From Timaviella obliquedivisa GSE-PSE-MK23-08B (GTDB taxonomy: Bacteria > Cyanobacteriota > Cyanobacteriia > Elainellales > Elainellaceae): a stretch of DNA of 64,000 nt. Shown piece after piece: positions 41,624 to 57,920 of this stretch (position 1 is its first letter; every line of letters starts with the position of its first letter). The position numbers and the translations under genes were made by a program. A model generated the notes under the pieces. That model searched no databases. It was not told the origin of the DNA and saw nothing but the letters and a program-made list of their open reading frames with translations. Location: NCBI GenBank assembly GCA_019358855.1, contig JAHHII010000001.1, positions 558,001 to 622,000 on the forward strand, read 5' to 3'.

Positions 41624-41652
41624 AGAACCTCCACAGCTATCCTTTCCCCTAA

Positions 41653-41708
41653 TGGGGGCGGAGAGACTCGAACTCTCACGACCTTGCGGTCAACGGATTT
41701 TAAGTCCC
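41653..41708 (-). other. 3' half of tRNA-Leu(UAA): attachment site at the left end
   Basis: On the minus strand, the anticodon loop CTTAAAA (41704-41698), a long variable arm (GACC...GGTC), the T arm GAGAG-TTCGAGT-CTCTC and the acceptor strand CGCCCCC-A are intact; CCA is not encoded. The 5' side is not a tRNA: the anticodon stem is already mismatched and no D arm follows. This is the remnant left when an element integrates in the 3' part of a tRNA gene. The intact gene should lie at the far right end. Confidence 0.85.
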
Positions 41709-41826
41709 TAGACCGCCGTTCTGAAAAGCTTGCTAGATATGCCTTTCAGGACTAACCCATCGGTAATTGCCTAAATTCTAGCCTAAAAACTGGGTTAGAT
41801 CCCCTCAATGAGGGCAAAATTCTGGC

Positions 41827-42531
41827 TTAAAATCCATAGTCCCATCTTGCTTCGTAGCCCCGTGCATCAAGATGGGTAAAAACAGATGAACTAGCCAGCC
41901 CGCCTCGATCGCCCCACCAAGGGCTTAACCTATCATAAATGTCATAAGGGCTGACCCCATCTATCACAAAATCAACGGCATCCCCCCACATGTGGCGAGA
42001 CTGGGAAGCCCCCCCTACCGATGCATTAGTTCTAGGATCTCTGTACCAAGAATTAATTTTTATGGGAGCATTGCCTAACTTTTCTCTCACAAGTTCTAGA
42101 GATTTGGCGATCCGAATGATGCCCTCAATGACTGCCACGTCTTGGACTTGCCTAGTCCCCCCGTGTGTCGCTTCTCCCCATGTGAAATTCCCACCGGGAA
42201 GGATTGATTGATTCCCATAGAATTTAGACCTGTTACCAGGGAGAACGATAATAGCTCCCCTTGCCTTCGCAGTTGGATTCTTATCACTGGGTTTATTGCC
42301 AGGTTCTAACCCTTCCATTTTTATGTCAGGTGAATAGACTAACCAGGTATTTCTCCCCTTAAACATGCGATCGAAAGTAACTTGAATAAATAGACCCACA
42401 TTAGGTTTATAGGCTTTAACTCCAACCATTAACGCTTTCGGAACAGTGCAGAAATAATCCTCTGTCAGATCACTAATAGCTTTAGGCTGGAGCCGAAGGA
42501 AGGAACTTTTGACAAATTGGATTGTGATCAT
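41827..42531 (-). CDS. Peptidase M15-type endolysin
   Basis: A 234-aa protein. The C-terminal half is a Peptidase_M15 (D,D-carboxypeptidase/endopeptidase) domain: SRHMWGDAVDF gives zinc ligands His180 and Asp187, and FTHLD gives His220. The N-terminal 120 residues are an unassigned beta-rich region and may bind cell wall. There is no signal peptide, as expected for an endolysin released by a holin. It is the last gene of the leftward virion-like operon, 15 bp after a one-TM protein, which fits a lysis cassette. Confidence 0.85.
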   Translation of the reverse strand: MITIQFVKSSFLRLQPKAISDLTEDYFCTVPKALMVGVKAYKPNVGLFIQVTFDRMFKGRNTWLVYSPDIKMEGLEPGNKPSDKNPTAKARGAIIVLPGNRSKFYGNQSILPGGNFTWGEATHGGTRQVQDVAVIEGIIRIAKSLELVREKLGNAPIKINSWYRDPRTNASVGGASQSRHMWGDAVDFVIDGVSPYDIYDRLSPWWGDRGGLASSSVFTHLDARGYEARWDYGF

Positions 42532-42546
42532 AAGTCAGGTTCAGTC

Positions 42547-42855
42547 CTATTCCCTAGTCTCGTAAGAAGTCGTTTTAGATAGGTAATGATCAATGTGCTT
42601 AACCTGCTTTTCAATTGATACGACTTCTGTTCTAATTCGTTCACTGAAATGAGAGAATTTTTCTTTGAAACCGTTATGGGATAGGCTTTGCACATCTTGC
42701 AAGTTTGAGATCTGAAGGTCTTTTTTCTCAAGGTCATGTCGTAGCAATAGCATTTCACTATTGACCTTGATGAGAATTACCCGCCATAAAATAGTGCCAA
42801 CTGTGACAGAGCAACCGATCGCCCCAAAAATGAAGCCCGTTATATCACTGTTCAT
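42547..42855 (-). CDS. One-TM coiled-coil protein (holin/spanin-like)
   Basis: A 102-aa protein. A short N-terminus, one membrane segment (residues 7-30, GFIFGAIGCSVTVGTILWRV) and a charged coiled coil with heptads (LLLRHDLEKKDLQISNLQDV) to the end. Size, topology and position just before the endolysin fit a holin-like or spanin-like protein; this is inference from context. Its ATG overlaps the previous stop (ATGA). Confidence 0.65.
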   Translation of the reverse strand: MNSDITGFIFGAIGCSVTVGTILWRVILIKVNSEMLLLRHDLEKKDLQISNLQDVQSLSHNGFKEKFSHFSERIRTEVVSIEKQVKHIDHYLSKTTSYETRE

Positions 42856-43151
42856 ACATCTAGCGCCCCTTCCATTTCTGGAATAGACTTAGCCTCTAGA
42901 TAGCCCAAACTGCGGATCGTTACCAAAATTTTCACCTTGGCATCGTCCGGCACCTCCGGATCAATCTCCACAAGGTAGGGAAGATTTTTGATCGGTTCCT
43001 TGCCCTCCTGGAAGGCTTGTTGAGATGCATACCCATTGAGAGCCAACCTCACTGAAAGAGGTTCATTGATGCTCCAATGTAATTCGCTCAACCTCCAGTA
43101 ACCCTTCTCACTGGTTAACCCATGAATCTCTATCGGTGCTTGTAATCCCAT
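42852..43151 (-). CDS. Small virion-operon protein of unknown function
   Basis: A 99-aa soluble beta-rich protein (MGLQAPIEIHGLTSEKGYWR). Its ATG at 43151 overlaps the stop of the fibre-like gene in a TAATG, and its own stop overlaps the next start, so it is translationally coupled on both sides. A longer start at 43187 lies inside the upstream gene and is not preferred. It may be a fibre chaperone or assembly factor, by position only. Confidence 0.7.
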   Translation of the reverse strand: MGLQAPIEIHGLTSEKGYWRLSELHWSINEPLSVRLALNGYASQQAFQEGKEPIKNLPYLVEIDPEVPDDAKVKILVTIRSLGYLEAKSIPEMEGALDV

Positions 43152-44026
43152 TACCAAACCTCCGTTAATTGCACTGAGGCTACCCATTTGATGGTTTTCC
43201 CAGCATCCCCTTTAACCTGAATTTTCAGCCCTCCGTTCACCGTGTCAGCCGTTACGGTCGGTGTCCAGTTCGTGCCATTGCCCAGCGACGATCGCCGGGT
43301 TCCCGTGGCAGTTTGTAAAACAGTGCTTGCCGCTGCCGCCCCTCGGTAGAGTGCCCCTGAACCAAGCCAGTAAATAAATTCAGGCGTTGCCGCTGTGCTG
43401 TGACCTACCAAGGAAATTTCATAGCCTGCTGACGAATTGGCATGAATTAGAACCCTCTGAGGGGTAACTATCTCCGTTAATGTGGCATCAGTGGTTTGAG
43501 CCGTTAGGGTGATCCGGTTGGCATTAGCAGCAAGCGCCGTCATCAATGCTGCGGTTGTCACCTTGTCAGCCAGCGCCGCTGTTAAATCTGAGGTCTTCAC
43601 TCTGTCAGCCAGCGCCACCAGCAATTCTGTAGAGTCTACATACTGGCTATGCGCTGTTAGGTCAGCCTCATGATCATCAATTGCTAGCGATAGCAATGTT
43701 GGTTCATTAGTCGGATCTACCGCTTCAAAAACGTCGATGGCTACAGTCCATGAAGTTGTAGAAAACGTGTTCAGTTTGAGAGCAAGCCGACGATAACCAA
43801 TAAGTTCATCAGGGCAAACGAAATCAATCAAATCATGCTGATTCTTAGGATTGATCCGGCGTGTATCTAACAGCTCGAAAGTCTCATTTAAGAACCCTTG
43901 ACTAACTAGACCTCTAGATTCTGGGTCAGATGTTAAATGCCGAAAACGGAACAACCGTCCTGCTAGTGGCGCGGTATATTGCCAGTTTTGAGTCAACGTA
44001 AATTCAGCAATCTGGTTCCAAGTCAT
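43151..44026 (-). CDS. Tail-fibre/receptor-binding-like protein
   Basis: A 291-aa protein in three parts. The N-terminus (1-115) is beta-rich (WNQIAEFTLTQNWQY). Residues 130-170 are an Ala-rich helical stalk with near repeats (LLVALADRVKTSDLTAALAD). The C-terminal beta domain ends GGLKIQVKGDAGKTIKWVAS, a pattern typical of the distal domains of phage tail fibres and spike-like virion proteins. The likely role is host binding. It overlaps the next gene upstream by four bases. Confidence 0.75.
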   Translation of the reverse strand: MTWNQIAEFTLTQNWQYTAPLAGRLFRFRHLTSDPESRGLVSQGFLNETFELLDTRRINPKNQHDLIDFVCPDELIGYRRLALKLNTFSTTSWTVAIDVFEAVDPTNEPTLLSLAIDDHEADLTAHSQYVDSTELLVALADRVKTSDLTAALADKVTTAALMTALAANANRITLTAQTTDATLTEIVTPQRVLIHANSSAGYEISLVGHSTAATPEFIYWLGSGALYRGAAAASTVLQTATGTRRSSLGNGTNWTPTVTADTVNGGLKIQVKGDAGKTIKWVASVQLTEVW

Positions 44027-44484
44027 AGCAAGCTATTCACCTTACCCTCAAGGCGTTGTAAGTCTTCCCTAATGAATTCAAGAGTTTCGGTGTCAGATGC
44101 CTCTGTACCGCTGTACTCCCAAATCGTGACCCGCATAGTTCGATGCCATTTGGGAACCTCAACCCGCAAACGGTATAGGGTTGAAAGCTTTGGAAACCTC
44201 ACCAATAGACCGCGATTGATGGGAATTGAGATTTGATTGGTATCAATCTGAACAAAATCAGTACTTGGTGCATCAATGATCATTTGCACCCGTACACCTA
44301 ACCGCCAATGTGCTAGAGCCTCTGACGAGTCAGTGGCAATCAGAAGCGTGTGAGAAGGAAAGAGCCGACTGATCACAAACGGGGGAATAGGGGTGTACCT
44401 GGTAGGTGTGATAGCTGAACCTTGGTAGCTCTGGTCATAGACCTTTTCCCAGTTGGCAGCATCTTGTAGTTGAAACTCTGGCAT
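44023..44484 (-). CDS. Virion-operon structural-like protein
   Basis: A 153-aa beta-rich protein with a short C-terminal coiled coil (IREDLQRLEGKVNSLL). No family recognised. Its stop overlaps the fibre-like gene's start (ATGA), so the two are probably made together and may form one complex, with the coiled coil as an oligomerisation point. Confidence 0.7.
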   Translation of the reverse strand: MPEFQLQDAANWEKVYDQSYQGSAITPTRYTPIPPFVISRLFPSHTLLIATDSSEALAHWRLGVRVQMIIDAPSTDFVQIDTNQISIPINRGLLVRFPKLSTLYRLRVEVPKWHRTMRVTIWEYSGTEASDTETLEFIREDLQRLEGKVNSLL

Positions 44485-44497
44485 TTTTCCCTATTCC

Positions 44498-44725
44498 CTA
44501 CTCTTCACCTTCCCAATCTTCATCCATATCCTCTAGTCGTTCGTCGTACTCGCCCCCCTCAAGGTAGTCTTGCAAATCGCCAGGTGAGGCAGGACGCATC
44601 ACGCCGCTACCAGGCTCTGCGATAAATGCAAACGTGTCATGCTTCACAGCCACGTCACGCCAATTCGGGGGAACTGCCGTCGAAAGCGTCAGGTCAAATA
44701 AAGGATTACCGGGAAGGATCAGCAT
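44498..44725 (-). CDS. Small acidic virion-operon protein
   Basis: A 75-aa protein, hydrophobic at the start (MLILPGNPLFDLTLSTAVPP) and strongly acidic at the end (DERLEDMDEDWEGEE). It starts in a TAATG overlap with the stop of the two-repeat protein. Function unknown; an acidic tail is common in small chaperones and DNA mimics. Confidence 0.7.
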   Translation of the reverse strand: MLILPGNPLFDLTLSTAVPPNWRDVAVKHDTFAFIAEPGSGVMRPASPGDLQDYLEGGEYDERLEDMDEDWEGEE

Positions 44726-45300
44726 TAGAGATCGGGAATCAAATTGTACTTATCAGAAACTGTCCACCCCGCCGCCGCCGCGGCGTTTGCAACTGCGGTG
44801 GTAGGTTTCATGAAAGTTGACTCAGATCCAGTTAAAGTCCTACGGGTTGCACGTGGTGGTTTAGGAGTCGAACCCCACACCATGTTAGGAGTCGAACCAA
44901 CAGCCAGTTCAAACCCTAAATCAGCCGCCAAGTCCACATCATCGACCGTGATATTCCAGGCATAGTTATAGGTTCCCATGTCAATGAAAACCGTACGAAC
45001 TCGACCGGAACGCTTGAGACCACGACGGATGCCAGACTGAGTTACAGTCCAACCCGTAGTTTTCAGCGTGGCAATTTTGCTGTCATCGCAGAAGCTGCCT
45101 ACAATTGTGGTTGTAAACTCTTTAGTAGCCCTAGCAGGTTTGGGCGCATTGGCACCAAAAAACACACCCGCTTGCGCTACAAACGGTGTGTGTCCCAACT
45201 CAGCCGCATAAGTTGAAGATGTAGAACTGGCTTGAAATCCATACTTTAGGGTTCCAATCGTAACAAAGACTGGGGAACGCGCCCCGCGTGCTCGTGGCAT
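44725..45300 (-). CDS. Two-repeat basic protein; candidate abundant structural protein
   Basis: A 191-aa protein built of two related units of about 85 residues. Residues 11-91 and 104-187 share VF(V/I)xxGTxxY, AA(E/D)LG, then xPKPxRATxxx, and GWTV near the end. The N-terminus is basic (MPRARGARSP). It is preceded by 153 bp without genes, a candidate promoter (45338-45366) and a strong Shine-Dalgarno (AGGAG, 9 nt from the ATG), unlike the coupled genes around it. Strong independent expression suggests a major particle component or nucleoid protein. I recognise no family. Confidence 0.75.
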   Translation of the reverse strand: MPRARGARSPVFVTIGTLKYGFQASSTSSTYAAELGHTPFVAQAGVFFGANAPKPARATKEFTTTIVGSFCDDSKIATLKTTGWTVTQSGIRRGLKRSGRVRTVFIDMGTYNYAWNITVDDVDLAADLGFELAVGSTPNMVWGSTPKPPRATRRTLTGSESTFMKPTTAVANAAAAAGWTVSDKYNLIPDL

Positions 45301-45337
45301 TGATCAAACTCCTGAATAGGTAACCGATTTGATTCCT

Positions 45338-45366
45338 ACGCTATGAAGCCTAACAACGCCCGTCAA
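45338..45366 (-). promoter_or_regulatory. Candidate promoter of the two-repeat protein gene
   Basis: On the minus strand TTGACG (45366-45361) and TAGCGT (45343-45338) are spaced by 17 bp, about 40 nt before the start codon. The -35 box is close to consensus, the -10 box weak. Confidence 0.45.
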
Positions 45367-45453
45367 GGCTCGGAAAATACTGACACCTATCATGCCGCCC
45401 CCCTAGGGTAGCGCCTATGTACAGGCTAGAAGTAAGAGGCAAAATTTTTATAA

Positions 45454-45654
45454 TTAACTGCTATTTCTGAGCAAATCTTGCCTGATATCCAGAAGTTGCT
45501 GATAGACTTGCTCACGAGATTGCCCTGTTTCTTCTGAGAGCCGCTGTAACAGGTCACCCCGTGGGTTATAGGTGTATGAGCGCCCAAAGCGCGATCGCCT
45601 ACGTTTGATCGCCCGTCTGGTGTTCGTGCCCAACAGTGTCCATAAATCGCTCAT
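45454..45654 (-). CDS. Small Arg-rich protein
   Basis: A 66-aa protein with a basic segment (TRRAIKRRRSRFGRSY) and a helical C-terminus (SEETGQSREQVYQQLLDIRQ). It is coupled to the 486-aa gene by an ATGA overlap. DNA or RNA binding is likely from the Arg cluster; no family recognised. Confidence 0.7.
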   Translation of the reverse strand: MSDLWTLLGTNTRRAIKRRRSRFGRSYTYNPRGDLLQRLSEETGQSREQVYQQLLDIRQDLLRNSS

Positions 45655-47111
45655 TGTAAGGGGGAAATGCCTTCCGGCTCCGTCTCAGTCCAAAGCTCTA
45701 GCCTGATATGTTCTTGCTTAAAGTTCTGCCCTGATAGGTCATTTGTTCCGGTTAACTCAGCAGTAGAGCGCCGAATGAGTAGAGTTGCATAAGCTGGGTA
45801 CATCTGAACCGGATCTTTTTTGAGGTTCTGATGCCGATCCTTCTCTTCAGTGACCGATAGGGTCAGGATGTTAGCTGTGGAAAGAGCAAGTAACTCTCTT
45901 AACTTTGTTTCGGCTTGCCCTTCACTAGCGCCATAAACCGCCATTTGCCTCCCATTGTCTAGGTTTGCAGTCGCTCGATACTTCCCCCATGTCCAAGGGT
46001 TAGCCGCCGCTTTGATGGTTGCCCAAGATAAGCCAACCTTTGCGTCTGGGATGGTTGCCGTCACCTCTCTAACCCTTCCAGAGGGAATGATCCAAGGTGG
46101 CTCTGGTTTTGACTTGAATACAATCGTCAGTTTGCGCCGCTGTGTGCCTGCCTTCAGCCAGTCCTCAGCAGGTTGACCCACAATCTGCCCTACATCTCGG
46201 TTATAGACTAGCTTATGGGTTGCTAACGTGGTTTGAATATCTTGCTGGATCAGCTTCTGAGATCCAGTTAAAACGATGGTTTCACCTTCCACCCGTGCAT
46301 CTGGAGTAATTTTTACCGCTCGTTTCTCTCCAAATGCCCCCTCATTAGCAAGCTTGGTAGAAGAGTAGTAATCATCTAAGGCATAGGAAACCACATAACC
46401 GACCTCAATAATTGCTTCCGTTGCTGACTCAATGAAGTTACTAACAAATGCCTTAAGCTGTGGGTTGCCAATGCTTTCCACACTTTTCTCAACCTGCCCC
46501 GCGATTGTCCAGGGTTCCCGCTCGCTTGTGATTGGCGCTTGTCCAAAAAGCCTCAATCTACGCTGTGTGAGAACTTCAGTTAACACCCAATTCGACAGCA
46601 ACGATCGGCGGGCAGTGCTGAAAAGTTGGGCAAGCTGTCCCCGAATCTCTTCGCCCCCCTCTTCTGCTAGAGCTAGGGCGATTTTCCCCGCAATCACCGG
46701 GAACTTGATCGCAGCTAGGGAGGCAACCCCAAGGCTAGTCAGCCATACTAGCCCCGTTCCTGCGAGGTTCCCTAAAGCGCCAAAAATAGCGGTGTTATTT
46801 TGGCTGATTTCTGCCTTGATAGAAGCGTCTGTTTGGTTCCAGTCAAAAGTGACAATGGTAAATGTCAACTCAACTAGCGATTCCCATGCATGAGTCAGAA
46901 GCCAAGTGCCAATAGAGAACGCCGCCTGAATTAGGAAGCCTCCAAAGCGGGTCAATCCTCCGATCGCCCAATTAATCAGCCCTCCCCCTTGTCCACCGTC
47001 TCCTTCTGGCTCTGCTGATAGGGATGCGAAAACATCTATCACCCGTGATCCGACTAATGCCCTCACTTGTTGGCTCTTTAGCGCATCCCTAGAAATCGTG
47101 ATTAGGCTCAT
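45651..47111 (-). CDS. Large virion-operon protein with hydrophobic N-terminal half
   Basis: A 486-aa protein. Residues about 45-150 hold several hydrophobic, helix-like stretches (GGLINWAIGGLTRFGGFLIQ, IGTWLLTHAW, GLVWLTSLGVASLAAIKFPV). The second half is soluble and beta-rich, with a repeated-looking tail up to LELWTETEPEGISPLQ. It overlaps both neighbours by four bases. A tail-associated or membrane-penetrating role is possible. I recognise no family. Confidence 0.7.
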   Translation of the reverse strand: MSLITISRDALKSQQVRALVGSRVIDVFASLSAEPEGDGGQGGGLINWAIGGLTRFGGFLIQAAFSIGTWLLTHAWESLVELTFTIVTFDWNQTDASIKAEISQNNTAIFGALGNLAGTGLVWLTSLGVASLAAIKFPVIAGKIALALAEEGGEEIRGQLAQLFSTARRSLLSNWVLTEVLTQRRLRLFGQAPITSEREPWTIAGQVEKSVESIGNPQLKAFVSNFIESATEAIIEVGYVVSYALDDYYSSTKLANEGAFGEKRAVKITPDARVEGETIVLTGSQKLIQQDIQTTLATHKLVYNRDVGQIVGQPAEDWLKAGTQRRKLTIVFKSKPEPPWIIPSGRVREVTATIPDAKVGLSWATIKAAANPWTWGKYRATANLDNGRQMAVYGASEGQAETKLRELLALSTANILTLSVTEEKDRHQNLKKDPVQMYPAYATLLIRRSTAELTGTNDLSGQNFKQEHIRLELWTETEPEGISPLQ

Positions 47112-49309
47112 TCTGCCCCCTCATTTTGTGCCAGGTTGCGAATATCGGCTTGGGGCGCTGTCGGGTCAAGTTGGTTAGCAGGTGGGTTCTTAATCTGTGC
47201 AATGAACTCTGCCCACGCCTGATCATCCTGGTTAGAACTAGCCTCTTGAGCCGATTTAATGCGATCGCCGGGTAGTTCACTGTTTAGAATGTCCCACGGT
47301 CTAAACACAGAAGCTTTTGTCATCTCACCTGCCGTCACCAACGCTTGAAGAACTTCTTGAAGATCTTTATCCCCCGCGAATTCCCACGAGGGTATTTTTT
47401 TGGTAGATGGTTTGAGAGCGTCTTTAATTGATTTAGCGCCCGGTGAAACTGAAAGTTTTATATCTCTTTCTGATTCTCTGTGCCGATAGCCCAAATATTT
47501 AGCGTTCGCCTTGGCATAGTCTGAAGCCGTTACCGCCGCCGCCTGCCCCTTAATGGTTTCAGCAATTCCCTTAAATGCTAATTCTTGTAAAATATCGGTA
47601 TCAACATCGAGTGACATCGTTAAACCAATAAGTTCCGCTAGTGCTTCCGCTTGGTTGAGAAACTCAATGTTCTTCTCAATCCCCGCCGCATTCTTATACT
47701 TAATTTTTATCGGGTAATTTCCTGATATTGAATCGAGTTGTAGAAACAGCCATTCTTGCCATGATGCAGCATCATAGATGGTTACTGTTTCATTACTATT
47801 ACTTGTGATGTTTTTGGGTACAGTTGCCGGGAAACGATTGAAGCCAGAGCGTTGATAGTTAACTGCGGATAGATTGGTAATTATATTAATGAGGTTCAGT
47901 ACTCTAACCCCGCTGGAGGTGTTTCCATCTCCATATAGTCCCGTTCTCGCTTCGCGTATCAAGTTCTCTGGATCTATGCGCCCCTCTGGTAATCTCTGAT
48001 CATCGATCGCCCCCCAAAAAGTGCCCCCCAGAATAGCGTAAACTCTAGCTATTCTGTACCCAAGCTTTTCTAGTTGCTTAAGGACAGGTTCGAGTGCTTT
48101 TTTGATGGCTTCTAGGATCTGCTTTGTTTGATCTTTTGTTTGAGCCTCGTTCTTATCGATAGCGTTTTTTATAGCCCCAAGTATTTGAGTTGATAAGCTT
48201 TTGATTGACTCTTTCAACACTGTGAAAGCGCTATCAAACTTAGCAGCAAAATCCTTCACCTGTTGACTTAAAGCTCTGACGATAGTAGTGAGAGATGATA
48301 AGGAATCGATGACTTGCTGTTGGAACTGTCGAATCAGCGCCTTAATTTCAGCAGACTCTAGTTTGATGTGGCTAATGATTTCAGACTTAGCCACGTTAAT
48401 CGCGCTTACTGCATCATTGCCGCCGCCCTGGTTAGCGAATAGCGCAATGATTTGAGCTATAAATGACGCAAATTGCTCTAGAAAAATTGCTCTTAGAGCA
48501 TTTTGAATCTGACTTGATAAATCTCTCAGGTTAGCCAAGATGGAGTTGATAATGACCTCTAGCCCGCTGAATCTGTTATCAATGCTTTGAATCAAACTTT
48601 TCAGAGCGTTGATACCATCAATAATGAGCCGAATCTGGGCGGCAATGCCTACCAGTTCTGCCAATGAACCAGACAGCCTTTGCACGAGAGAGAGTAGATT
48701 CTCTAATGCAGTCATGATTTGGGCTTGGGCTTGGCGAACCAGTCCCTTAGTTTCAGCCGCTTCTAGCTTGACATGACTGATGATTTCAGACTTTGCTACA
48801 TTGATCGCGCTCACCGCTTCACTGTTGGCACTGCCGCCAATAAACAGAGCAACCATCTGAATTAATTGGGCGATCGCCTGAGCAATTGGGGATATGAGTT
48901 CAATAACTACATTCCTAATTTCAGATGTAATTGCTTGAATTGGAGCCAGTAGCTCATCCCGGACTGTTCTAATTGCTGCTATTAGGTCTGGTGAAAGCTG
49001 CCGAATAGCCATCAGAACATCGCTAACTATCCCTCTAAACCTTGATTCAACTCCTGAGAGGACGCTCGATAGGGTAGATATGATGGTGTTTTCGGTGGCT
49101 TGAATCTGCCCACTCAGTCCTGAAACTTGTGACCGGATTTGACTGAGCTGGCTAAGGACACTTGATAAATCAACTGAACCGCGATCTTGTGACATTTCTT
49201 GCACCAATGCTTCTAATCTGGCAATTCTAGGCAGTACACCCGCTAACCCCTCACTCTCACTCCGTAAGGCTCTAACCTGGGCTAGAAGCTCTTCACAACA
49301 ATCGCTCAT
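47108..49309 (-). CDS. Tape-measure-like coiled-coil protein
   Basis: The largest gene of the element, 733 aa. Residues 1-430 are almost entirely helical, with coiled-coil heptads and hydrophobic stretches (near 135-157 and 275-292). Inside is a duplicated block: AVSAINVAKSEIISHVKLEA (from 164) and AVSAINVAKSEIISHIKLES (from 300). The remainder (440-733) is a globular, unassigned region. Length, helical content, hydrophobic stretches and place in the operon recall tape-measure proteins; that is an analogy. Overlaps both neighbours (ATGA). Confidence 0.7.
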   Translation of the reverse strand: MSDCCEELLAQVRALRSESEGLAGVLPRIARLEALVQEMSQDRGSVDLSSVLSQLSQIRSQVSGLSGQIQATENTIISTLSSVLSGVESRFRGIVSDVLMAIRQLSPDLIAAIRTVRDELLAPIQAITSEIRNVVIELISPIAQAIAQLIQMVALFIGGSANSEAVSAINVAKSEIISHVKLEAAETKGLVRQAQAQIMTALENLLSLVQRLSGSLAELVGIAAQIRLIIDGINALKSLIQSIDNRFSGLEVIINSILANLRDLSSQIQNALRAIFLEQFASFIAQIIALFANQGGGNDAVSAINVAKSEIISHIKLESAEIKALIRQFQQQVIDSLSSLTTIVRALSQQVKDFAAKFDSAFTVLKESIKSLSTQILGAIKNAIDKNEAQTKDQTKQILEAIKKALEPVLKQLEKLGYRIARVYAILGGTFWGAIDDQRLPEGRIDPENLIREARTGLYGDGNTSSGVRVLNLINIITNLSAVNYQRSGFNRFPATVPKNITSNSNETVTIYDAASWQEWLFLQLDSISGNYPIKIKYKNAAGIEKNIEFLNQAEALAELIGLTMSLDVDTDILQELAFKGIAETIKGQAAAVTASDYAKANAKYLGYRHRESERDIKLSVSPGAKSIKDALKPSTKKIPSWEFAGDKDLQEVLQALVTAGEMTKASVFRPWDILNSELPGDRIKSAQEASSNQDDQAWAEFIAQIKNPPANQLDPTAPQADIRNLAQNEGAE

Positions 49310-49995: not shown

Positions 49996-50002
49996 AATTA
50001 TC

Positions 50003-50332: not shown

Positions 50333-50375
50333 GATGATGACTCTCAAAACATTGAGGAGAGAGTGCCCTTACCCA

Positions 50376-50404
50376 ATGAAAAACCCTACTACAGGAGCAG
50401 GGTT
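50376..50404 (-). terminator. Terminator-like hairpin T1 upstream of the virion-like operon
   Basis: On the minus strand AACCCT (50404-50399) pairs with AGGGTT (50387-50382) over an 11-nt loop, followed by a T-run. It is about 44 nt before the first virion-operon start. Confidence 0.7.
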
Positions 50405-50458
50405 AGGGCGTATGACTTCCACTCATACCTCTTACTTGGGGAGAAGATACCCTCATTC

Positions 50459-50488
50459 AATAAAAAACCCGCTCACAAGGGGCGAGTT
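50459..50488 (-). terminator. Terminator-like hairpin T2 after the RelE-type toxin gene
   Basis: On the minus strand AACTCGC pairs with GCGGGTT, with one G-T wobble, and TTTTTATT follows. It lies 9 nt past the toxin stop and is related in sequence to T1, T3 and T4. Confidence 0.75.
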
Positions 50489-50497
50489 ACTTCATTG

Positions 50498-50758
50498 CTA
50501 TCGATACGCTTCCCGGCGATGTTTGACTCTCAAAACCAAAATGAGAAGCTGTTTGTCTCGAATTTGGTAGACTACTCGGTAGTCTCGGACTCTGATACGG
50601 TAAACATCAGTCATGCCTTTGATTTTGCTGACTCCGTTGGGGCGTGGCTGGGAACTCAGTTCGTTGATGGCGGTACTGATCTGCTGTTGCAATTCCTCAT
50701 CAGACAGGGCTGCCAACTGTTTCTGCGCCTCTCTAGAAAGCTCAATGCTGTAGGGCAT
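50498..50758 (-). CDS. RelE/ParE-type toxin
   Basis: An 86-aa protein: MPYSIELSREAQKQLAALSD at the start and VYRIRVRDYRVVYQIRDKQL near the end are the classic RelE/ParE fold signature. RelE toxins cleave mRNA in the ribosome; ParE toxins poison gyrase; the two cannot be told apart here. Its ATG at 50758 shares a base with the stop of the preceding gene (TGATG), the usual antitoxin-toxin coupling. It probably stabilises the element. Confidence 0.85.
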   Translation of the reverse strand: MPYSIELSREAQKQLAALSDEELQQQISTAINELSSQPRPNGVSKIKGMTDVYRIRVRDYRVVYQIRDKQLLILVLRVKHRREAYR

Positions 50759-51009
50759 CACTTCACCCCTAATTCGGCTTTCACTTGTTCCCAGGGCACA
50801 GTCCCTTGAATTTCGATTTCTCGCAGTGCGGCTTGTGCATCTGCTAGGTCTTCGGCATCTTCGTCTGACTCCATCTCAATGTCGTAGCGTTCTTTGAGGA
50901 ACAAAATGAAGTGAAGCAATTCTCCAAAGTAGAAATCATCAGGGGTTTGCTCTAGCTCTTGAAGGATTTGGTCTTTAATGTCGGTGGATAAGAAGTTGGG
51001 ACGGGGCAT
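50758..51009 (-). CDS. Antitoxin partner of the RelE/ParE-type toxin
   Basis: An 83-aa acidic helical protein (MPRPNFLSTDIKDQILQELE, MESDEDAEDLADAQAALREI) with a C-terminus IQGTVPWEQVKAELGV, common in cyanobacterial RelB-like antitoxins. It is assigned mainly from coupling to the toxin. Confidence 0.75.
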   Translation of the reverse strand: MPRPNFLSTDIKDQILQELEQTPDDFYFGELLHFILFLKERYDIEMESDEDAEDLADAQAALREIEIQGTVPWEQVKAELGVK

Positions 51010-51108
51010 ACAATTAACTCCACTACTGTTTTTTGTAGGGGCAACCTGTTGGGGTGTGCCCCTCTCTCTATTTTGGGCTGATCTTACAACCTGGTAGCTA
51101 TGCCCTGT

Positions 51109-51154
51109 CCAATAAAAAACCCGCTCACTGAGGCGGGTTAGTGTCCATTGATGA
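51109..51154. repeat. 46-bp direct repeat, copy 1, with terminator T3
   Basis: Matches 51934-51979 with one difference. Its first part (51111-51139) is a minus-strand terminator: AACCCGC...GCGGGTT followed by TTTTTATT. The other part is GTGTCCATTGATGA. With copy 2 it brackets the gene for a four-TM protein. Confidence 0.85.
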
Positions 51155-51162
51155 ATGTAAGG

Positions 51163-51282
51163 TTATGCGACGCTTCCTTCAAGCTGGTACTCAGCAAAGT
51201 TAACCAACATGATTACGGAAAACTGGTCATTTCCACCACCACCGCCACTGCCGCCGCCGCCAACAGATACAACTATTTGTCG
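51163..51282 (-). pseudogene. Gly-rich C-terminal fragment without a start
   Basis: A 39-codon frame (RQIVVSVGGGGSGGGGGNDQ, then FSVIMLVNFAEYQLEGSVA) follows directly on an in-frame TAA at 51283-51285, and upstream of that stop the frame continues as GKICPTVAGV. It looks like the end of a structural-type protein with a Gly-linker. No ATG gives a credible product. It may be the 3' remnant of a gene whose front was replaced by the membrane-protein cassette. Confidence 0.4.
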
Positions 51283-51293
51283 TTACACCCCTG

Positions 51294-51866
51294 CTACTGT
51301 AGGACAGATTTTCCCGCGTTAGGGGCCCGCCGATCGCCTCTACCTACAGCCATGAGGCGATGTTCCACTAGATAAAAGCAGTGGTAGAGGTAAGCCGCAC
51401 AGGTTAACCAGGTCAGTGATAAAAGTCCAAAAAACTGCTCTGAGTTGCCATTAGGCAAGGGGATCTGGTAGCTAATGCTGAAAAGTGGATGAATGAGCCA
51501 ACCTATGAAGGTTGTGGTAGTAGATGCAATACCGATCGCCGCACAGCCCCAAATTCCTTCCCAAAAACTCATTAAGTTAGGAACTATCCCTTTGACAATG
51601 CCGATTTCAGGGGCTTGAAGCTTAGGGACGTAGCGACTCAATACTAAATGAATAAGGTGGTGAACAATAGCGATCGCCAAAATTGGAGACAGCAAGGTGA
51701 AGCAAATGACTGGGATGAACTGATCAGGACGGTTAGCCAAGTAGGACAGCACAGCCTGAGAAATGAAGACGGACTTGATGATATAAATATTCATTGCAGC
51801 AAGTAGAAGCAGAAACAAGGCATTCAGCCACGAGCTAGGGTAAGGCAGGCACTTAGGGTACTTCAT
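51294..51866 (-). CDS. Polytopic membrane protein
   Basis: A 190-aa protein with four to five hydrophobic segments (near 10-35, 48-72, 100-125 and 145-165; for example ICFTLLSPILAIAIVHHLIH). A short basic C-terminus follows. No family recognised. It sits between two 46-bp repeats, so it may be a moron-like cassette; superinfection exclusion is one possible role, purely inferred. Confidence 0.7.
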   Translation of the reverse strand: MKYPKCLPYPSSWLNALFLLLLAAMNIYIIKSVFISQAVLSYLANRPDQFIPVICFTLLSPILAIAIVHHLIHLVLSRYVPKLQAPEIGIVKGIVPNLMSFWEGIWGCAAIGIASTTTTFIGWLIHPLFSISYQIPLPNGNSEQFFGLLSLTWLTCAAYLYHCFYLVEHRLMAVGRGDRRAPNAGKSVLQ

Positions 51867-51933
51867 TGGGCAAACTCCATATCTATCTATGTTTGACCGC
51901 CTTAGCCTCTAAGCGCGGTCTTTTCTAAAGTGC

Positions 51934-51979
51934 CCAATAAAAAACCCGCTCACTGAGGCGGGTTCGTGTCCATTGATGA
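51934..51979. repeat. 46-bp direct repeat, copy 2, with terminator T4
   Basis: Matches 51109-51154 with one difference (C for A at the join of hairpin and tail). The hairpin 51936-51964 terminates minus-strand transcription from the 37-aa gene. Confidence 0.85.
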
Positions 51980-51988
51980 GTGAATTGA

Positions 51989-52102
51989 TTAACCTACTTT
52001 CTTTAATTGATCCTTTTGTCTCAAGTGGTTCAGCCTTGCCTGTACTACAGCGGGGGACTTGATTTTCATCGACTCCATCATTCTCCTAGTAGCTTCTTTC
52101 AT
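51989..52102 (-). CDS. Small basic 37-aa protein
   Basis: Begins MKEATRRMMESMKIKSPAVV and ends QLKKVG. A near-perfect Shine-Dalgarno (AAAGGAG) lies 7 nt before the ATG and a terminator (T4) follows 25 nt after the stop, so it looks like a genuine gene. It is basic and helical; a nucleic-acid-binding regulator is possible. No family recognised. Confidence 0.65.
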   Translation of the reverse strand: MKEATRRMMESMKIKSPAVVQARLNHLRQKDQLKKVG

Positions 52103-52134
52103 GTTCAGACTCCTTTACGGTTGTAGTACACTTC

Positions 52135-52410
52135 TCAAGAGTTATCGTACAATTCTCGAACTTGGCTGTCTACTTCAGCCTCATAATATTCATCTTTTTC
52201 AAGTCGGTCGTTTAGCTCATTGTGCCAAGAATCAGGATAGTCGGCATTGTAGCAACCGCCTGTAGGGTCTCCATCTGCATCAGGGCTTGATAGGAATGGA
52301 TCGCCCCCTTCCCTTGCTGCAAGTCCCTGTTCTTGCCCACGTCTACCCCAATCTTCTTGGGTCATATCGTCTTCACCATCATTACCGCGCCATGAAGTAC
52401 CGCTAAACAT
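52135..52410 (-). CDS. Small acidic protein
   Basis: A 91-aa hydrophilic, acidic protein (MFSGTSWRGNDGEDDMTQED, ending VDSQVRELYDNS), without membrane segment. No family recognised. GGAG is 13 nt upstream. It may share a transcript with the 37-aa gene 32 bp downstream. Confidence 0.5.
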   Translation of the reverse strand: MFSGTSWRGNDGEDDMTQEDWGRRGQEQGLAAREGGDPFLSSPDADGDPTGGCYNADYPDSWHNELNDRLEKDEYYEAEVDSQVRELYDNS

Positions 52411-52565
52411 AGAATTAAATTAGCTCCGTGTGGGGTTGCCAGGGGTCGAGGGTCTCAAGCTATCCCCCTGGCTTTTACATTGCCGTCTTTCCGGGCTGTC
52501 ACCCCTGATGATTCATCAGTGGGAAAAGGAAGGGGCGGGAATGATCCGCCCTGGTGCCGACCTTC

Positions 52566-52904
52566 CTACTCTCCTGCCCAAGTGCGATAACCGATCGCCT
52601 CACTTCCAGCAAACTCAATGGCAACCCATCCAAGAGTGCCTGCCACTTTGTAATAGTCCAACCTCGCATCCATGCACTTGGGTGAGCCGAAGCGGTTTCT
52701 CATATCGGCAGAGGTTTGAGGGAAAGCAAGGTAGGAGAGATCCTCTACATCTCCTTGTGATAGCTCCCCATCAAGTCCGTAGGGGTTAGCGGCGCAGTAA
52801 TCATCGACTATTGAGGCGTTGCTTGGGGGCAAGTGGACAGAACTTGCAATCATCAGTAGTGACCCTACCAACGGTAGGGATACTGGAATCATCGAACGTC
52901 GCAT
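52566..52904 (-). CDS. Secreted small protein, BamE/SmpA-like pattern
   Basis: A 112-aa protein starting at the ATG 52904 with a signal peptide (MRRSMIPVSLPLVGSLLMIA, cleavage near SNASIVDD). The mature part reads TSADMRNRFGSPKCMDARLD, then YYKVAGTLGWVAIEF, the order of elements of the SmpA/OmlA (BamE-like) fold. GGAG lies 11 nt upstream. A longer frame to 53078 overlaps the XRE gene and is rejected. An exported protein in a mobile element may alter the host surface; inference. Confidence 0.65.
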   Translation of the reverse strand: MRRSMIPVSLPLVGSLLMIASSVHLPPSNASIVDDYCAANPYGLDGELSQGDVEDLSYLAFPQTSADMRNRFGSPKCMDARLDYYKVAGTLGWVAIEFAGSEAIGYRTWAGE

Positions 52905-52946
52905 AATTGATAAAGCTCCATAGTTGTTTGTGAACTTGGGGTCATG

Positions 52947-52973
52947 CCAGTGGGTAATGCAACTACCCACTGG
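52947..52973 (-). terminator. Hairpin after the XRE regulator gene
   Basis: CCAGTGGGTA and TACCCACTGG form a perfect 10-bp stem over a 7-nt loop, 65 nt past the regulator stop and just before the secreted-protein gene. There is no T-run on the minus strand; it could be an attenuator or RNA-stability element. Confidence 0.55.
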
Positions 52974-53037
52974 CTCTTGTTTGTCGCCACAGCGACAGAG
53001 GAAGGGGAGGGGACGATCCTCCCAAGTGCCAACCTTC

Positions 53038-53286
53038 CTAATTAATTGCGTCACCTTCAGGAATATCAGCCCGTCCAAATTGCCGTGGAATGTCGTGAAC
53101 AGAGCAGTCCAGCAAAGTGCATAGGGCTTGAACCTGAGTAATGGTTAACCGAGGTTCTCGTTGACCTGATACCCAGTAATAGACGGCTCTAAGTGACACA
53201 TCAAGAGCTTCTGCAACTTGTTCAGGGGTTTTGTTCTTAGCTTCCAGGAGACTCATGAACTGTGAGGGGTGTTGATTTTTATTCAT
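53038..53286 (-). CDS. XRE-family repressor-like regulator
   Basis: An 82-aa Cro/C1-type HTH protein. The HTH is KTPEQVAEALDVSLRAVYYW with the recognition helix followed by VSGQREPRLT. It lacks a C-terminal protease or dimerisation domain. It is divergent from the replication-integration module, and the gap holds repeated TGAACA/TGTTCA palindromes, so it is likely to control both sides as a lysogeny-type switch and itself. Confidence 0.85.
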   Translation of the reverse strand: MNKNQHPSQFMSLLEAKNKTPEQVAEALDVSLRAVYYWVSGQREPRLTITQVQALCTLLDCSVHDIPRQFGRADIPEGDAIN

Positions 53287-53293
53287 CTTACAC

Positions 53294-53354
53294 TGAACTA
53301 CTGTTCATGAACAGCCGTTCACTGTAGAATGCTCTAAGAGTGAACAACTGTTCA
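53294..53354. promoter_or_regulatory. Operator cluster between the regulator and replication module
   Basis: Three palindromes share the half-site TGAACA: TGAACTACTGTTCA (53294-53307), CTGTTCATGAACAG (53301-53314, perfect) and TGAACAACTGTTCA (53341-53354). A candidate plus-strand -10 box, TAGAAT (53325-53330), sits between the second and third sites. This is the classic layout of a phage-like repressor-operator region. Confidence 0.8.
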
Positions 53355-53411
53355 TTTTGGTTGTGCGGGACGGGGTTGATTTCGAGGTCTCACCCGTGCT
53401 GCATCCCATCA

Positions 53412-53506
53412 GTTTCTCAGACCTTATGAGAAACAAGGCGATCGCACCTCTTCGGGGGGCGATCGCCAATAAAAAAGCGCCCTGGTAGGGACGCTTGATT
53501 TTCGCT
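53412..53506 (+). promoter_or_regulatory. Structured leader before the primase module
   Basis: Three hairpins follow one another: GTTTCTCA/TGAGAAAC (53412-53434, 7-nt loop), two facing HIP1 sites GGCGATCGC...GCGATCGCC (53438-53467), and AGCGCCCTGG...AGGGACGCT at about 53476-53496. The last is preceded by AATAAAAAA and so is also a minus-strand terminator. The 200-nt leader may control copy number or expression. Confidence 0.5.
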
Positions 53507-53536
53507 TTGTCAATCTAAACAAACAGTGAATTATTT

Positions 53537-53806
53537 ATGAATACGCAAACCTCCGGATTTATTCAGCAACATTTCAACGAATTAGAAGACGAGGTTAGAA
53601 CCCTCGCTGTGAAACATAACTACTTAGTAGAGTCCATCAGCCTGCTCTGGTCAGAGATCCAGCGAACCACCACCGACCCGCTAACCAGACAGCGCTGTGA
53701 AAGACGAATAGGAGAGCTAAACCTCCTACTGCATGACATTGAACCGAAACCAGAAAACCTAACCCCAACCAGTGGGCAAGTTTCACCGGACGGTATCCCC
53801 TTTTAG
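53537..53806 (+). CDS. Small coiled-coil protein
   Basis: An 89-aa protein: helical, coiled-coil N-terminal two thirds (FIQQHFNELEDEVRTLAVKH) and a Pro-rich tail (PTSGQVSPDGIPF). It is the first gene of the rightward module, before the primase. No family recognised; an accessory replication factor is possible. Confidence 0.6.
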   Translation: MNTQTSGFIQQHFNELEDEVRTLAVKHNYLVESISLLWSEIQRTTTDPLTRQRCERRIGELNLLLHDIEPKPENLTPTSGQVSPDGIPF

Positions 53807-53810
53807 AGCT

Positions 53811-53828
53811 AAGGAGGGCGCACTCCTT
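53811..53828 (+). other. Short hairpin between the coiled-coil and primase genes
   Basis: AAGGAG and CTCCTT pair perfectly over GGCGCA, 5 nt after the stop. The AAGGAG resembles a Shine-Dalgarno but no ORF follows at the right distance. Confidence 0.4.
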
Positions 53829-53917
53829 ACCTCTAACTCGTAAACTTTACCCATCACTAATCGTATGTTATCAGCATCTATTGAGGTGTCAATTGGCACA
53901 CAGACAGGGGCGGGAAG

Positions 53918-55507
53918 ATGGTAGCTTCTCCCTTTGCCTCAGTTCAGCACAAATTCCGGTTCGTTCCAGAGTGGGATGACTTCCTAGAGCTATTCCCTCA
54001 CCGTGGCTCATACCTCTGGGCAGAACATCCAGGGGCAGGCGATCGCCCGGATTGGCAAACCGAGACGCGCCACTTGTTAAGCGATCGATTAGTCCAGCAA
54101 GGGGCTTACCTGTATGGAGTCAGGTTCGGGCAAAACACCCATTACCTGATGATTGATATCGATCGCGGTTCCCGGTTGCACCCAGCCCATGATCCATTCG
54201 CCATTGGTCGAGTCATCGATGCATTAGAGCCGCTGGGATTGGTTTCATGTGTGCCAATTCGCAGTTCCTACTCTGATGGGATTCATCTTTACTTCCCGTT
54301 TTCCCATGGGCAGAAAAGCTGGGCGATCGCCCAGGCAGCTGAGTCATTGATTCAGAGTGCTGGATTTAAGCTCGACAAAGGGCAGGTAGAACTATTTCCC
54401 AACCCGCGCCGCTGTACAGGTCGAGATTACAATGGGCACCGCCTGCCACTGCAACAAGGGTCTTACCTGCTCGATCGAGATATGGAACCCGTCCTCTCAT
54501 CCCGTGCCGAGTTCGTCCGGCGCTGGAGACTAGCCGAAGGTCGAAACACCCTCACAGAAGAGACTCTTACCCTCACCCTGAAGCAATTCAGCCGCCAAGC
54601 CCCCAAAAAACTGAGGTTCTCAGCCCAAAAGTTTCTCAATGATCTGAATGCAGATGTAGAAGGCGGCTGGACAGGCTCCGGACAAACCAACTACATCCTA
54701 GGGCGCATTGCTCAACGAGAGTACGTGTTTTTCCATGCCCTCTACGGTGGATCACCCCTAAGCGGTGAACGGCTTGCCGCTCGGATCTGCGAGGTTGCAG
54801 AAGACTTACCAGGCTACAAACAGTACTGCCATCATCAATACGAGATGTTTGACCGATGCATGGAGTTTGCGCGGTCGATCGAACATAGCGGCTATTACCC
54901 GTACGGGGGGGATGTGGTGCTTAGGGTAGTTCGCAGTGACCCAAAAGCGAACTCATGGAACAAGCAACAAGCCAGTGAAGCCCGTCAAAGGATTGAATCT
55001 GCCCTAAGTGACATGACCCAGAAAGGCACGTTACCCAGTGGGATTAGAAACCTGCTCTATGCGATTAAAAGCTATGGGGTATCAGCGGGCAGTTTCTACA
55101 AAAATAGGGACTTATGGGAGGGTAAAAATCAACTGAAACCCGCTCCTGGAGCCATGATCCGACCTACTTTAGAGGAAATAGAAGAACCTGAAAACCTGAA
55201 ACCCGCTCCTGGAGCCATGATCCGACCTACTGATCCAATAAGCTTGTACACTGCTGATCCGGATGACCCCCCCAAAGGGGTCAAGCCGGATTCTGCTTTA
55301 AGGGCTGTTGGGGGGCGCGGGGGGTTATCCACAAGTACAAATGAACCGCCGCCAGAACCGCCGCCCGTGGGAATCGAGTTCATCCGCCACACCCTCAACC
55401 AAATTAAGCAACGCCGCCGGCAGCCGCAGCCGCCATCGTCAGCCAGTTCCCTACCGCCGCCTGACGAAAGTTGGTTCAACCAATGGCGAACGGAGGGCAC
55501 TGCATGA
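53918..55507 (+). CDS. AEP-superfamily primase / replication protein
   Basis: A 529-aa protein. The archaeo-eukaryotic primase core is recognisable: Asp80 and Asp82 in YLMIDIDRGS, His123 in SYSDGIHLYF and Glu158 in VELFPNPRR, as in TOTE/PrimPol-like primases. A helical domain (210-390) follows. The C-terminal 130 residues are a Pro-rich, low-complexity linker with a duplicated LKPAPGAMIRPT (about 407 and 427) and a short helix ending NQWRTEGTA. No helicase domain is visible. It probably primes or starts replication of the excised element. Confidence 0.75.
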   Translation: MVASPFASVQHKFRFVPEWDDFLELFPHRGSYLWAEHPGAGDRPDWQTETRHLLSDRLVQQGAYLYGVRFGQNTHYLMIDIDRGSRLHPAHDPFAIGRVIDALEPLGLVSCVPIRSSYSDGIHLYFPFSHGQKSWAIAQAAESLIQSAGFKLDKGQVELFPNPRRCTGRDYNGHRLPLQQGSYLLDRDMEPVLSSRAEFVRRWRLAEGRNTLTEETLTLTLKQFSRQAPKKLRFSAQKFLNDLNADVEGGWTGSGQTNYILGRIAQREYVFFHALYGGSPLSGERLAARICEVAEDLPGYKQYCHHQYEMFDRCMEFARSIEHSGYYPYGGDVVLRVVRSDPKANSWNKQQASEARQRIESALSDMTQKGTLPSGIRNLLYAIKSYGVSAGSFYKNRDLWEGKNQLKPAPGAMIRPTLEEIEEPENLKPAPGAMIRPTDPISLYTADPDDPPKGVKPDSALRAVGGRGGLSTSTNEPPPEPPPVGIEFIRHTLNQIKQRRRQPQPPSSASSLPPPDESWFNQWRTEGTA

Positions 55508-55815
55508 CCCTTGCCACTCAAAAAACCTTTGTCGATGTGCTAGTGAGCATTGAGATGAAGCTAGTCAAGCTGGGATGGGTAACGATTTCCCGCAGCGGGG
55601 AACGCCGTACCGCCAATGTCACAGAACCTCGCGTGCTGAAATGGGCGATCGCAGTCTGCATCAAGTCAGGCATATCTAGCGAATTTATCAACACAGTGCT
55701 AGAAAAAACGCCGCCTGAGAGACATTGGCATCGCATTAGGGCACATCTACCCGAATCTGCCTTCTACGTCCTAGAGGGAAAACTAGACGGCTTTCTCCTG
55801 AGTGATGAACATTGA
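55504..55815 (+). CDS. Small protein coupled to primase and integrase
   Basis: A 103-aa protein from the ATG 55504 (MTLATQKTFVDVLVSIEMKL). It overlaps the primase stop (ATGA), and its own stop overlaps the integrase start (TGATG). Mixed alpha/beta, basic. No family recognised. Position suggests a directionality factor or a replication accessory. Confidence 0.6.
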   Translation: MTLATQKTFVDVLVSIEMKLVKLGWVTISRSGERRTANVTEPRVLKWAIAVCIKSGISSEFINTVLEKTPPERHWHRIRAHLPESAFYVLEGKLDGFLLSDEH

Positions 55816-56936
55816 TGAACATTGACGGACGCATCGCCCAAGCCAACGGGCGATTAAAAGCCGCTCGTGTGGGTGTGGCGATCGAGCGAACTGGGGGCAA
55901 GTTGCGGCTACGTGCCACACTGCCCCCGCGCCCTGGTGCGGTTCAGTCAGTCCCACATCAGCAACGAATCACCCTTGGCATTGCTGCCAGCATCGATGGC
56001 GTGAAGTTGGCAGAAGCCAAAGCGCGAGAAATTGGGGCAATGCTCACCCAAAATAAATTTGATTGGAGTCTGTACGCCAAAAATGACGTACAGATTCAGC
56101 CCCAAAACTGTGGGCAATGGGTTGAGCAGTTCGAGCAAGATTACTTCCAGAAGCGCAAACGAACTTACAAAACTGAGACCACCTGGAACGGTGACTATGC
56201 AGAAGTGTTTAAATTTCTGCCCAAAGGTCAGCCCCTCACATCGAGGCTCATGGATCAACTCATTAAGGCAACTGAACCAGACACCAAAAAACGGCAGCGC
56301 TATTGCATGGCAATGAAGGCGATCGCCAAATTTGCCGCGGTTGATTACGACCCCTCACCACTTGCCGGGAACTACTCACCCGCAAGCGCGGCTCATCGTG
56401 ACCTCCCAGATGACCAAACCATCATTGAGTGTTTCCATAAAATTCCCCATTCGGGTTGGCGCTGGGTCTACGGGATGATGGCAACCTACGGGCTGAGGAA
56501 TCATGAAGCCTTCAAGATTGACTTTGAGCAATTGCGATCGGGTGATCCAATTCTCTCGGTTCTGGATGACACCAAAACTAACGCCCGTGAAATCTGGGCT
56601 TGCTACCCCGAATGGGTTGAGCAATTCGACTTGTGCAATGTCCAACTGCCACCCGTTAACCTCGACCGCCCCAATAAAGCGATCGGCGGGTCGGTCTCCA
56701 AAGCATTCGCCCGGTATGAACTGCCCTTTACCCCATACGACTTAAGGCACTGTTGGGCAGTTCGGACGCTGTTGTTTGGCATGGACTACGGCATGGCAGC
56801 GCTACAGATGGGGCATTCTGTCGCAGTTCACAAAGCTACCTACCACCGCTGGATCACCCGTGATCATCTACGCAGTGCCTACAGTCGCGTCATGTTGCAC
56901 CCCGATCGCCCCAAGCCACCCAAGCCACTTGCCTAA
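55815..56936 (+). CDS. Tyrosine recombinase (integrase)
   Basis: A 373-aa integrase. A SAM-like DNA-binding N-terminal half is followed by the catalytic domain: Arg228 in YGLRNHEAF, Arg311 in YDLRHCWAVR, His334 in MGHS and the nucleophile Tyr343 in KATYHRW. The first residue of the HxxR box is Tyr308 rather than His. It lies 91 bp from the attachment site, as expected. The ATG at 55815 is preferred to a TTG at 55812. Confidence 0.9.
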   Translation: MNIDGRIAQANGRLKAARVGVAIERTGGKLRLRATLPPRPGAVQSVPHQQRITLGIAASIDGVKLAEAKAREIGAMLTQNKFDWSLYAKNDVQIQPQNCGQWVEQFEQDYFQKRKRTYKTETTWNGDYAEVFKFLPKGQPLTSRLMDQLIKATEPDTKKRQRYCMAMKAIAKFAAVDYDPSPLAGNYSPASAAHRDLPDDQTIIECFHKIPHSGWRWVYGMMATYGLRNHEAFKIDFEQLRSGDPILSVLDDTKTNAREIWACYPEWVEQFDLCNVQLPPVNLDRPNKAIGGSVSKAFARYELPFTPYDLRHCWAVRTLLFGMDYGMAALQMGHSVAVHKATYHRWITRDHLRSAYSRVMLHPDRPKPPKPLA

Positions 56937-57026
56937 ATTTTGCCTAAAAATGGGCGTTGATTCTAAAGCCTTTCTGGGCAAGGGTTACAGCGGTACTGCT
57001 ACACCCTAAAACCCTCAATTGACCAA

Positions 57027-57905: not shown

Positions 57906-57920
57906 AAGTCAGGTTCAGTC

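Follow-up and report, generated by a model that had tools for sequence, protein, structure and literature searches.

A candidate member of an undescribed family of temperate, tailless virus-like elements integrated in tandem in the cyanobacterium Timaviella obliquedivisa

PM2 (Corticoviridae) is a tailless phage with double-stranded DNA (dsDNA), a circular genome of modest size and a spike whose structure is available (2vve/2w0c). The Simuloviridae and related sphaerolipovirus-type viruses of halophilic archaea have circular dsDNA genomes of 16-19 kb, are temperate with extrachromosomal proviruses, and possess two single jelly-roll capsid proteins (PMC12642351). FLiP and PhiCjT23 are lipid-containing single-stranded DNA phages with a 7.6-kb genome and an identified double jelly-roll capsid protein, and swapping of spike architecture between related capsids has been discussed for PhiCjT23 (PMC9719478). 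Phage satellites, reviewed recently, include P4-like elements, PICI, cfPICI, PICMI and tycheposons (PMC11389934), while G8, a group of satellite phage-plasmids found in cryoconite viromes, consists of circular scaffolds of 14-16 kb with integrase, primase and Cro/CI genes (PMC4490671). Here we analyze an integrated element in a 64,000-nucleotide stretch (hereafter, the window) of Timaviella obliquedivisa GSE-PSE-MK23-08B (contig JAHHII010000001.1, positions 558,001 to 622,000). We interpret this element, with a probability of roughly 52%, as an intact representative of a hitherto undescribed cyanobacterial family of virus-like elements, temperate and tailless, 12-21 kb in size, whose particles are predicted from gene content.

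The family resembles PM2 in its circular dsDNA of modest size, and the PM2 spike P1 resembles the modelled C-terminal domain of a protein, designated c3, that is found in most relatives (Z 10.1). The Simuloviridae are similar in genome size and plasmid state (plasmid relatives of the present family measure 20.8 kb), but no homologous capsid pair or ATPase is recognised in the cyanobacterial family. PhiCjT23 is likewise temperate, and spike swapping fits the exchange between the window copy and its sister clade described below; however, a double jelly-roll capsid protein was identified in FLiP/PhiCjT23 and none in the cyanobacterial family. Satellites share size, tRNA integration and the P4-like use of a primase in replication, yet the families known so far rely on borrowed particles, or on borrowed tails at the least, whereas the cyanobacterial family has a conserved module of large size and virion-like character, and no gene for hijacking packaging is recognised in it. 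Group G8, compared by description alone, is similar in its size and its integrase, primase and Cro/CI genes, and differs in having been reported without structural genes (one member has terminase and tail genes). In the element studied here, a conserved set of genes encodes candidate virion proteins. No described cyanobacterial family of such elements was found in the open-access literature searched.

The element is real and mobile and is not a decayed prophage. Two head-to-tail copies are integrated in the tRNA-Leu(UAA) gene in a textbook manner, with three copies of a 57-bp attachment (att) repeat starting at 41651, 57025 and 72399. Comparison of 41651-57081 with 57025-72455 revealed zero mismatches and a repeat period of 15,374 bp, and a genome search found exactly two copies in the T. 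obliquedivisa assembly. An intact tRNA-Leu(UAA) gene is restored at the right end, at about 72400-72482, past the window. Both flanks are contiguous around the tRNA in a sister species of the same genus, G033 (85% and 90% identity), so the tRNA-Leu(UAA) site of that genome is empty. The 15.4-kb element of the preliminary description, placed at 41651-56936, is genuine, with limits corrected to 41651-57024 (15,374 bp) and a presence twice in exact tandem. The exactness of the tandem may in part be an assembly effect. Another tandem dimer of the family, with a period of 18,006 bp, lies in Goleter apudmare (L086/L087).

The core of the element is a block of minus-strand genes encoding proteins of 733, 486, 66, 191, 75 and 153 amino acids (aa), referred to below by their lengths. 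Gene families were counted over 51 loci, 48 of which form a non-duplicate set. The C-terminal domain of 733 is present in all 48 non-duplicate loci, and in 38 of these 733 and 486 are direct neighbours in the same orientation; the genes that often follow encode 191 (or k10), a protein of 75-83 aa and 153. The k10 family occupies the position of 191 in some relatives and showed no similarity to the 191 family by hhalign. In L063, L090-L095, L097 and L098 (Nostocales-type and some others), the 486 protein is divided between two genes, of about 300 and 246 aa, that can be located apart from each other. Homologues of 486 occur in 12 of the 36 genomes sampled from the order and in 56 of 390 sampled from the class, and a 486 profile search of 386 genomes drawn across the phylum found it in that class only. 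A further scan, restricted by its motif patterns, covered about 85,000 species genomes and yielded 35 loci, every one of them in Cyanobacteria. The gene order that the preliminary description had proposed to look for was thus found in many cyanobacterial genomes; from IMG/VR, no relative was returned with the four queries used.

At least eight relatives, 12.3-20.8 kb long, could be delimited independently as att-bounded elements, a circle, plasmids or a tandem dimer. Four lie between direct repeats of 26-55 bp, with lengths of 13,827 bp (at tRNA-Glu), 13,871 bp (tRNA-Phe), 12,576 bp (tRNA-Met) and 12,258 bp. The compact complete relative L078, a contig of 12,675 bp whose ends overlap by 127 bp, closes to a circle of 12,548 bp. 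Two plasmids of about 20.8 kb (20,757 and 20,803 bp) belong to Tolypothrix and Allocoleopsis, and the relative in Tolypothrix PCC 7601 carries c3. Replication genes are exchanged among relatives: an AEP primase, a VapE-like helicase with DUF3854, or an AAA_25 helicase. A constant module combined with exchangeable replication genes is a pattern seen in virus lineages. In the best pairs for 486, 191, c3 and 153, synonymous rates (dS) were higher than nonsynonymous rates (dN) by factors from several to more than ten (for a 486 pair at 88% identity, dN was 0.076 and dS 1.1); judged by these ratios, the module is under purifying selection. Locus L122 (G033:C288:1-3760) is a partial family member that contains c4, 191, 75, 291, 111 and, at the position of 153, a 110-aa protein; its genome, G033, is the one with the empty tRNA-Leu site, and the search for 486 found no homologue in it.

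The 191 model produced by AlphaFold2 (AF2) is confident and consists of two similar alpha/beta units. The structural comparison proposed for it in the preliminary description was carried out; neither PDB nor BFVD contained a matching virion fold or any other fold match (one PDB row with Z 2.0; best BFVD E 0.18), which does not prove that the predicted fold is new. We regard 191 as a candidate coat protein. Profiles of 191, c3, 486, c4 and 733 had no meaningful match among PDB sequences. Only the C-terminal part of 733 is conserved: the N-terminal regions of its relatives are unrelated, rich in Cys and Pro, and have no coiled coil in common in the alignment. A variable outer part on a constant base would be more in keeping with an exposed protein than with a molecular ruler. 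The tape-measure-like function previously suggested for 733 is unsupported: weak coiled-coil matches to tape measures occur in the window protein alone, its coiled-coil N-terminal half is not shared by aligned relatives, and the conserved C-terminal domain is unmatched.

Among the main proteins of the element, searches against Pfam, PHROGs and NCBIfam recognised the M15 endolysin, the integrase, the repressor and a ParE toxin. In agreement with the preliminary description, they revealed neither the terminase, portal and HK97 capsid typical of tailed phages (Caudoviricetes) nor an FtsK/Zot ATPase, and a Walker A motif is missing from every called protein of the window element. Neither a family match nor a Walker A motif points to a large terminase ATPase among the called proteins, and the lack of Walker A extends to the FtsK/HerA-type packaging ATPases of tailless jelly-roll viruses (Varidnaviria) and to the Zot/pI-type ATPase that is a trait of the Inoviridae. 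The complete relatives L045 and L077 are likewise without an ATPase, and a PHROGs scan of ten proteins from each of two complete relatives found no head or packaging gene. For the portal, the sole family match in the element was a coiled-coil match of 733 (E 0.046). No HK97-fold major capsid protein was matched among the main proteins, a search that a very divergent capsid could escape. As a positive control, the same PHROGs search found the major head protein, portal and baseplate of a tailed prophage in the same genome; because these genes are recognised, the negative result is informative for ordinary divergence. That prophage, at G000:C2 around 301-338 kb (L120, L121), also has endolysin genes and is a possible helper. 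An inovirus-like coat was considered for an open reading frame (ORF) of about 60 aa between c3 and the 733 homologue of relatives and rejected, as this ORF has no transmembrane (TM) segment.

The c3 protein (about 270 aa) is encoded ahead of the 733 homologue and was detected in 35 of 51 loci. Its model has a pLDDT of 84.4 and a pTM of 0.54, with unsure domain placement. The modelled C-terminal domain aligns with PM2 spike P1 over 87 residues (Z 10.1, root-mean-square deviation 2.6), and the modelled N-terminal domain aligns with viral jelly rolls (Z 7.4-8.6), with a Foldseek probability of 1.00 for 1w39 (turnip yellow mosaic virus, TYMV). On these models, c3 is likely a vertex or shell protein. 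Because most relatives carry this jelly-roll and PM2 P1-like gene beside the 733 homologue, the family need not be capsid-less. The window copy, for which a capsid-less particle-forming element was among the options raised earlier, is without a jelly-roll gene by sequence. In the 486 tree, the window copy groups with L043, L044 and L064 (support 92/97), a sister clade in which the jelly-roll domain is retained, at full length in L043 and L044 but fragmented in L064. In the window copy, the stretch from the 190-aa membrane protein to 733 has a toxin-antitoxin pair, 109 and 229 in place of c3; the toxin-antitoxin pair occupies the site of the jelly-roll gene in the sister clade. The window copy has either exchanged its vertex set or lost a part of it. 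The 229-aa protein has no homologue by sequence and no similarity to c3, and may be the split-off front of 733 homologues, because it ends in a CCxxC motif and a helix like their N-terminal part, a likeness read by eye and without statistical support.

The features of the element are listed in Table 1. The tyrosine recombinase, archaeo-eukaryotic primase (AEP), XRE repressor with an operator cluster and lysis genes named in the preliminary description were all recovered, and every gene that it named is an intact ORF. The primase of the window has no curated family match; the motifs D80-x-D82, S116-S117...H123 and E158 are invariant between it and two homologues, one of which matches Pfam Prim-Pol at E 0.02, short of the curated cut-off. 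The M15 peptidase also matches a PHROG endolysin (E 4.9e-22) and PDB 1lbu (E 8e-7), and the 102-aa one-TM protein may be holin- or spanin-like. For the 291-aa protein, described earlier as fibre-like, the gene is present and relatives have fibre-like genes or fibre-type domains in the matching region, while its own match is weak (E 0.14); its C-terminal half is conserved in L122. Fibre-like genes do not require a tail, so the tail-without-head design implied by the preliminary description is unsupported.

Table 1. Features of the element and its surroundings, in window coordinates.
Feature	Position	Strand	Evidence or remark
Complete element, copy 1 of tandem dimer	41651..57024		15,374 bp; 100% identity with copy 2 over 15,431 bp
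att repeat, left end, 57 bp	41651..41707	-	3' part of tRNA-Leu(UAA)
M15 peptidase, likely endolysin, 234 aa	41827..42531	-	Pfam Peptidase_M15_3 E 5.5e-16
102-aa protein, N-terminal TM helix and coiled coil	42547..42855	-	hydropathy; family in 10/51 loci
111-aa protein	42852..43187	-	also in same-genus relative L122
291-aa fibre-like protein	43151..44026	-	phrog_2106 minor tail, weak, E 0.14
153-aa module protein	44023..44484	-	family in 22/51 loci
75-aa acidic module protein	44498..44725	-	18/51 loci; always adjoins 191 family (gene maps)
191-aa module protein, two-fold alpha/beta repeat	44725..45300	-	30/51 loci; AF2 pLDDT 90.9
66-aa basic protein, module member	45454..45654	-	19/51 loci
486-aa hallmark protein, hydrophobic segment 121-142	45651..47111	-	alignments A1, A5; homologues in 56/390 class genomes
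733-aa protein	47108..49309	-	C-terminal ~250 aa conserved (alignment A8); N-terminal coiled coil peculiar to window copy
229-aa Cys-rich protein	49306..49995	-	possibly split N-terminal domain of 733 homologues
109/114-aa module protein	50003..50347	-	homologue in L049; weakly resembles c4 family of relatives
ParE-type toxin and putative antitoxin	50498..51009	-	toxin 50498-50761, antitoxin 50758-51009; Pfam ParE_toxin E 2.6e-16
190-aa membrane protein, recurrent in family	51294..51866	-	two TM segments; 10/51 loci
XRE repressor	53038..53286	-	HTH_3 E 3.9e-7
Operator-like palindromes TGAAC...GTTCA	53287..53355		repeats next to XRE gene
AEP-type primase, 529 aa	53918..55507	+	invariant motifs in alignment A9; homologue matches Prim-Pol E 0.02
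Tyrosine recombinase (integrase), 374 aa	55812..56936	+	phrog_1 E 6.5e-12
att repeat at copy 1/copy 2 junction, 57 bp	57025..57081	-	
Copy 2, left part	57025..64000		runs on to 72398 past window (G000:C1:615025-630398)

As a tailless virus-like element, it would go through the following cycle. The XRE switch would control excision to a circle, which the AEP primase would replicate together with host enzymes. The module 733C-486-66-191-75-153, with variable fibre-like adsorption proteins, would build the particle, to be released by the M15 enzyme and the one-TM protein. In most relatives, the vertex or shell would consist of the jelly-roll/PM2-P1-like protein; the window copy has the toxin-antitoxin pair, 109 and 229 at that position, its vertex proteins having been exchanged or one of them lost. 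The DNA would enter the particle either without a dedicated packaging ATPase or with an ATPase provided by the host or a helper. The more specific proposal of a new virus family (or higher rank), with a particle made from the 191 fold, 733C and 486, an exchangeable jelly-roll/PM2-P1 vertex protein and DNA enclosed without a dedicated packaging ATPase, is tentative, and we would put it at about one chance in three.

Several observations weigh against the tailless virus-like reading. The jelly-roll gene c3 is not detectable by sequence in the window copy, which also has no ATPase by the Walker A criterion. Domains like PM2 P1 occur in tailed-phage proteins too, and a modelled jelly-roll Z near 7-8 can reflect a common arrangement; because of such P1-like domains, and because jelly rolls exist outside capsids, the vertex or shell role of c3 is likely but not certain. 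Lysis genes vary, the M15 family being present in just 2 of 51 loci. Queries with 486, 229, c3 and 191 returned no relative from IMG/VR, where one stretch related to 486 was reported without any locus being returned; 486, 191, c3 and the primase had no match among INPHARED phages; and no match to 42600-50347 was seen among CRISPR spacers of 390 genomes. One spacer-like match (35 bp, 89%) was dismissed, as no CRISPR array exists at that place.

The alternative that survives best, though we consider it unlikely, is a non-viral, plasmid-like integrative element whose module builds, for example, a surface adhesin or a transfer apparatus. Plasmid relatives, the toxin-antitoxin pair, the hydrophobic segments of the 486 family and the lack of any returned virome or phage record with the module are all compatible with such an element. 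The layout of XRE, AEP, integrase and endolysin genes is phage-like, however, the jelly-roll and PM2-P1-like protein and the fibre-type domains are typical of virions, and neither a relaxase nor any type IV secretion component could be recognised among the scanned proteins.

Somewhat less probable still is a satellite that has its own adsorption and lysis proteins and packages its DNA in helper phage heads, such as those of the C2 tailed prophage. The element has neither packaging genes nor an ATPase, the 12-21 kb of its family fall in the size range of known satellites, and a prophage with capsid, portal and baseplate genes is resident in the genome. Nevertheless, the module is far larger than is usual for satellites and the same core recurs across many cyanobacterial families; the jelly-roll/P1-like protein of relatives would be needless for a head thief, and no gene for capsid remodelling or terminase redirection was recognised.

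A capsid-less membrane particle of pleolipovirus- or plasmavirus-like type, with 733 and 486 as envelope spike and membrane proteins, appears very improbable: an endolysin would be unusual in a particle that leaves the cell by budding, and most relatives have the jelly-roll gene, although the window copy is without it, 486 has membrane-type segments by hydropathy, and 733 combines a variable N-terminus with a conserved C-terminus. Descent from an ordinary tailed prophage that lost its head and packaging genes, to which fibre-like and lysis genes without head genes might point, is largely refuted by the exact att repeats, the intact ORFs, the purifying selection on the module and the independently delimited relatives of the same size. 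The preliminary description had named homologues with the missing genes at this place as a refuting find; relatives of 12.3-20.8 kb are likewise without tailed-phage genes.

The family of tailless virus-like elements to which we assign the window copy is present in roughly one of every seven species genomes sampled from the class. It is nevertheless absent from the virus-collection results with the queries used, probably since programs for virus detection search for terminase, portal and capsid genes. Should the module form particles, cyanobacterial viruses of a common group have so far escaped notice, and packaging that lacks a recognisable motor could be tested in hosts that can be cultured. 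Should it form none, the family would represent integrative elements of a new type, equipped with surface proteins of their own.

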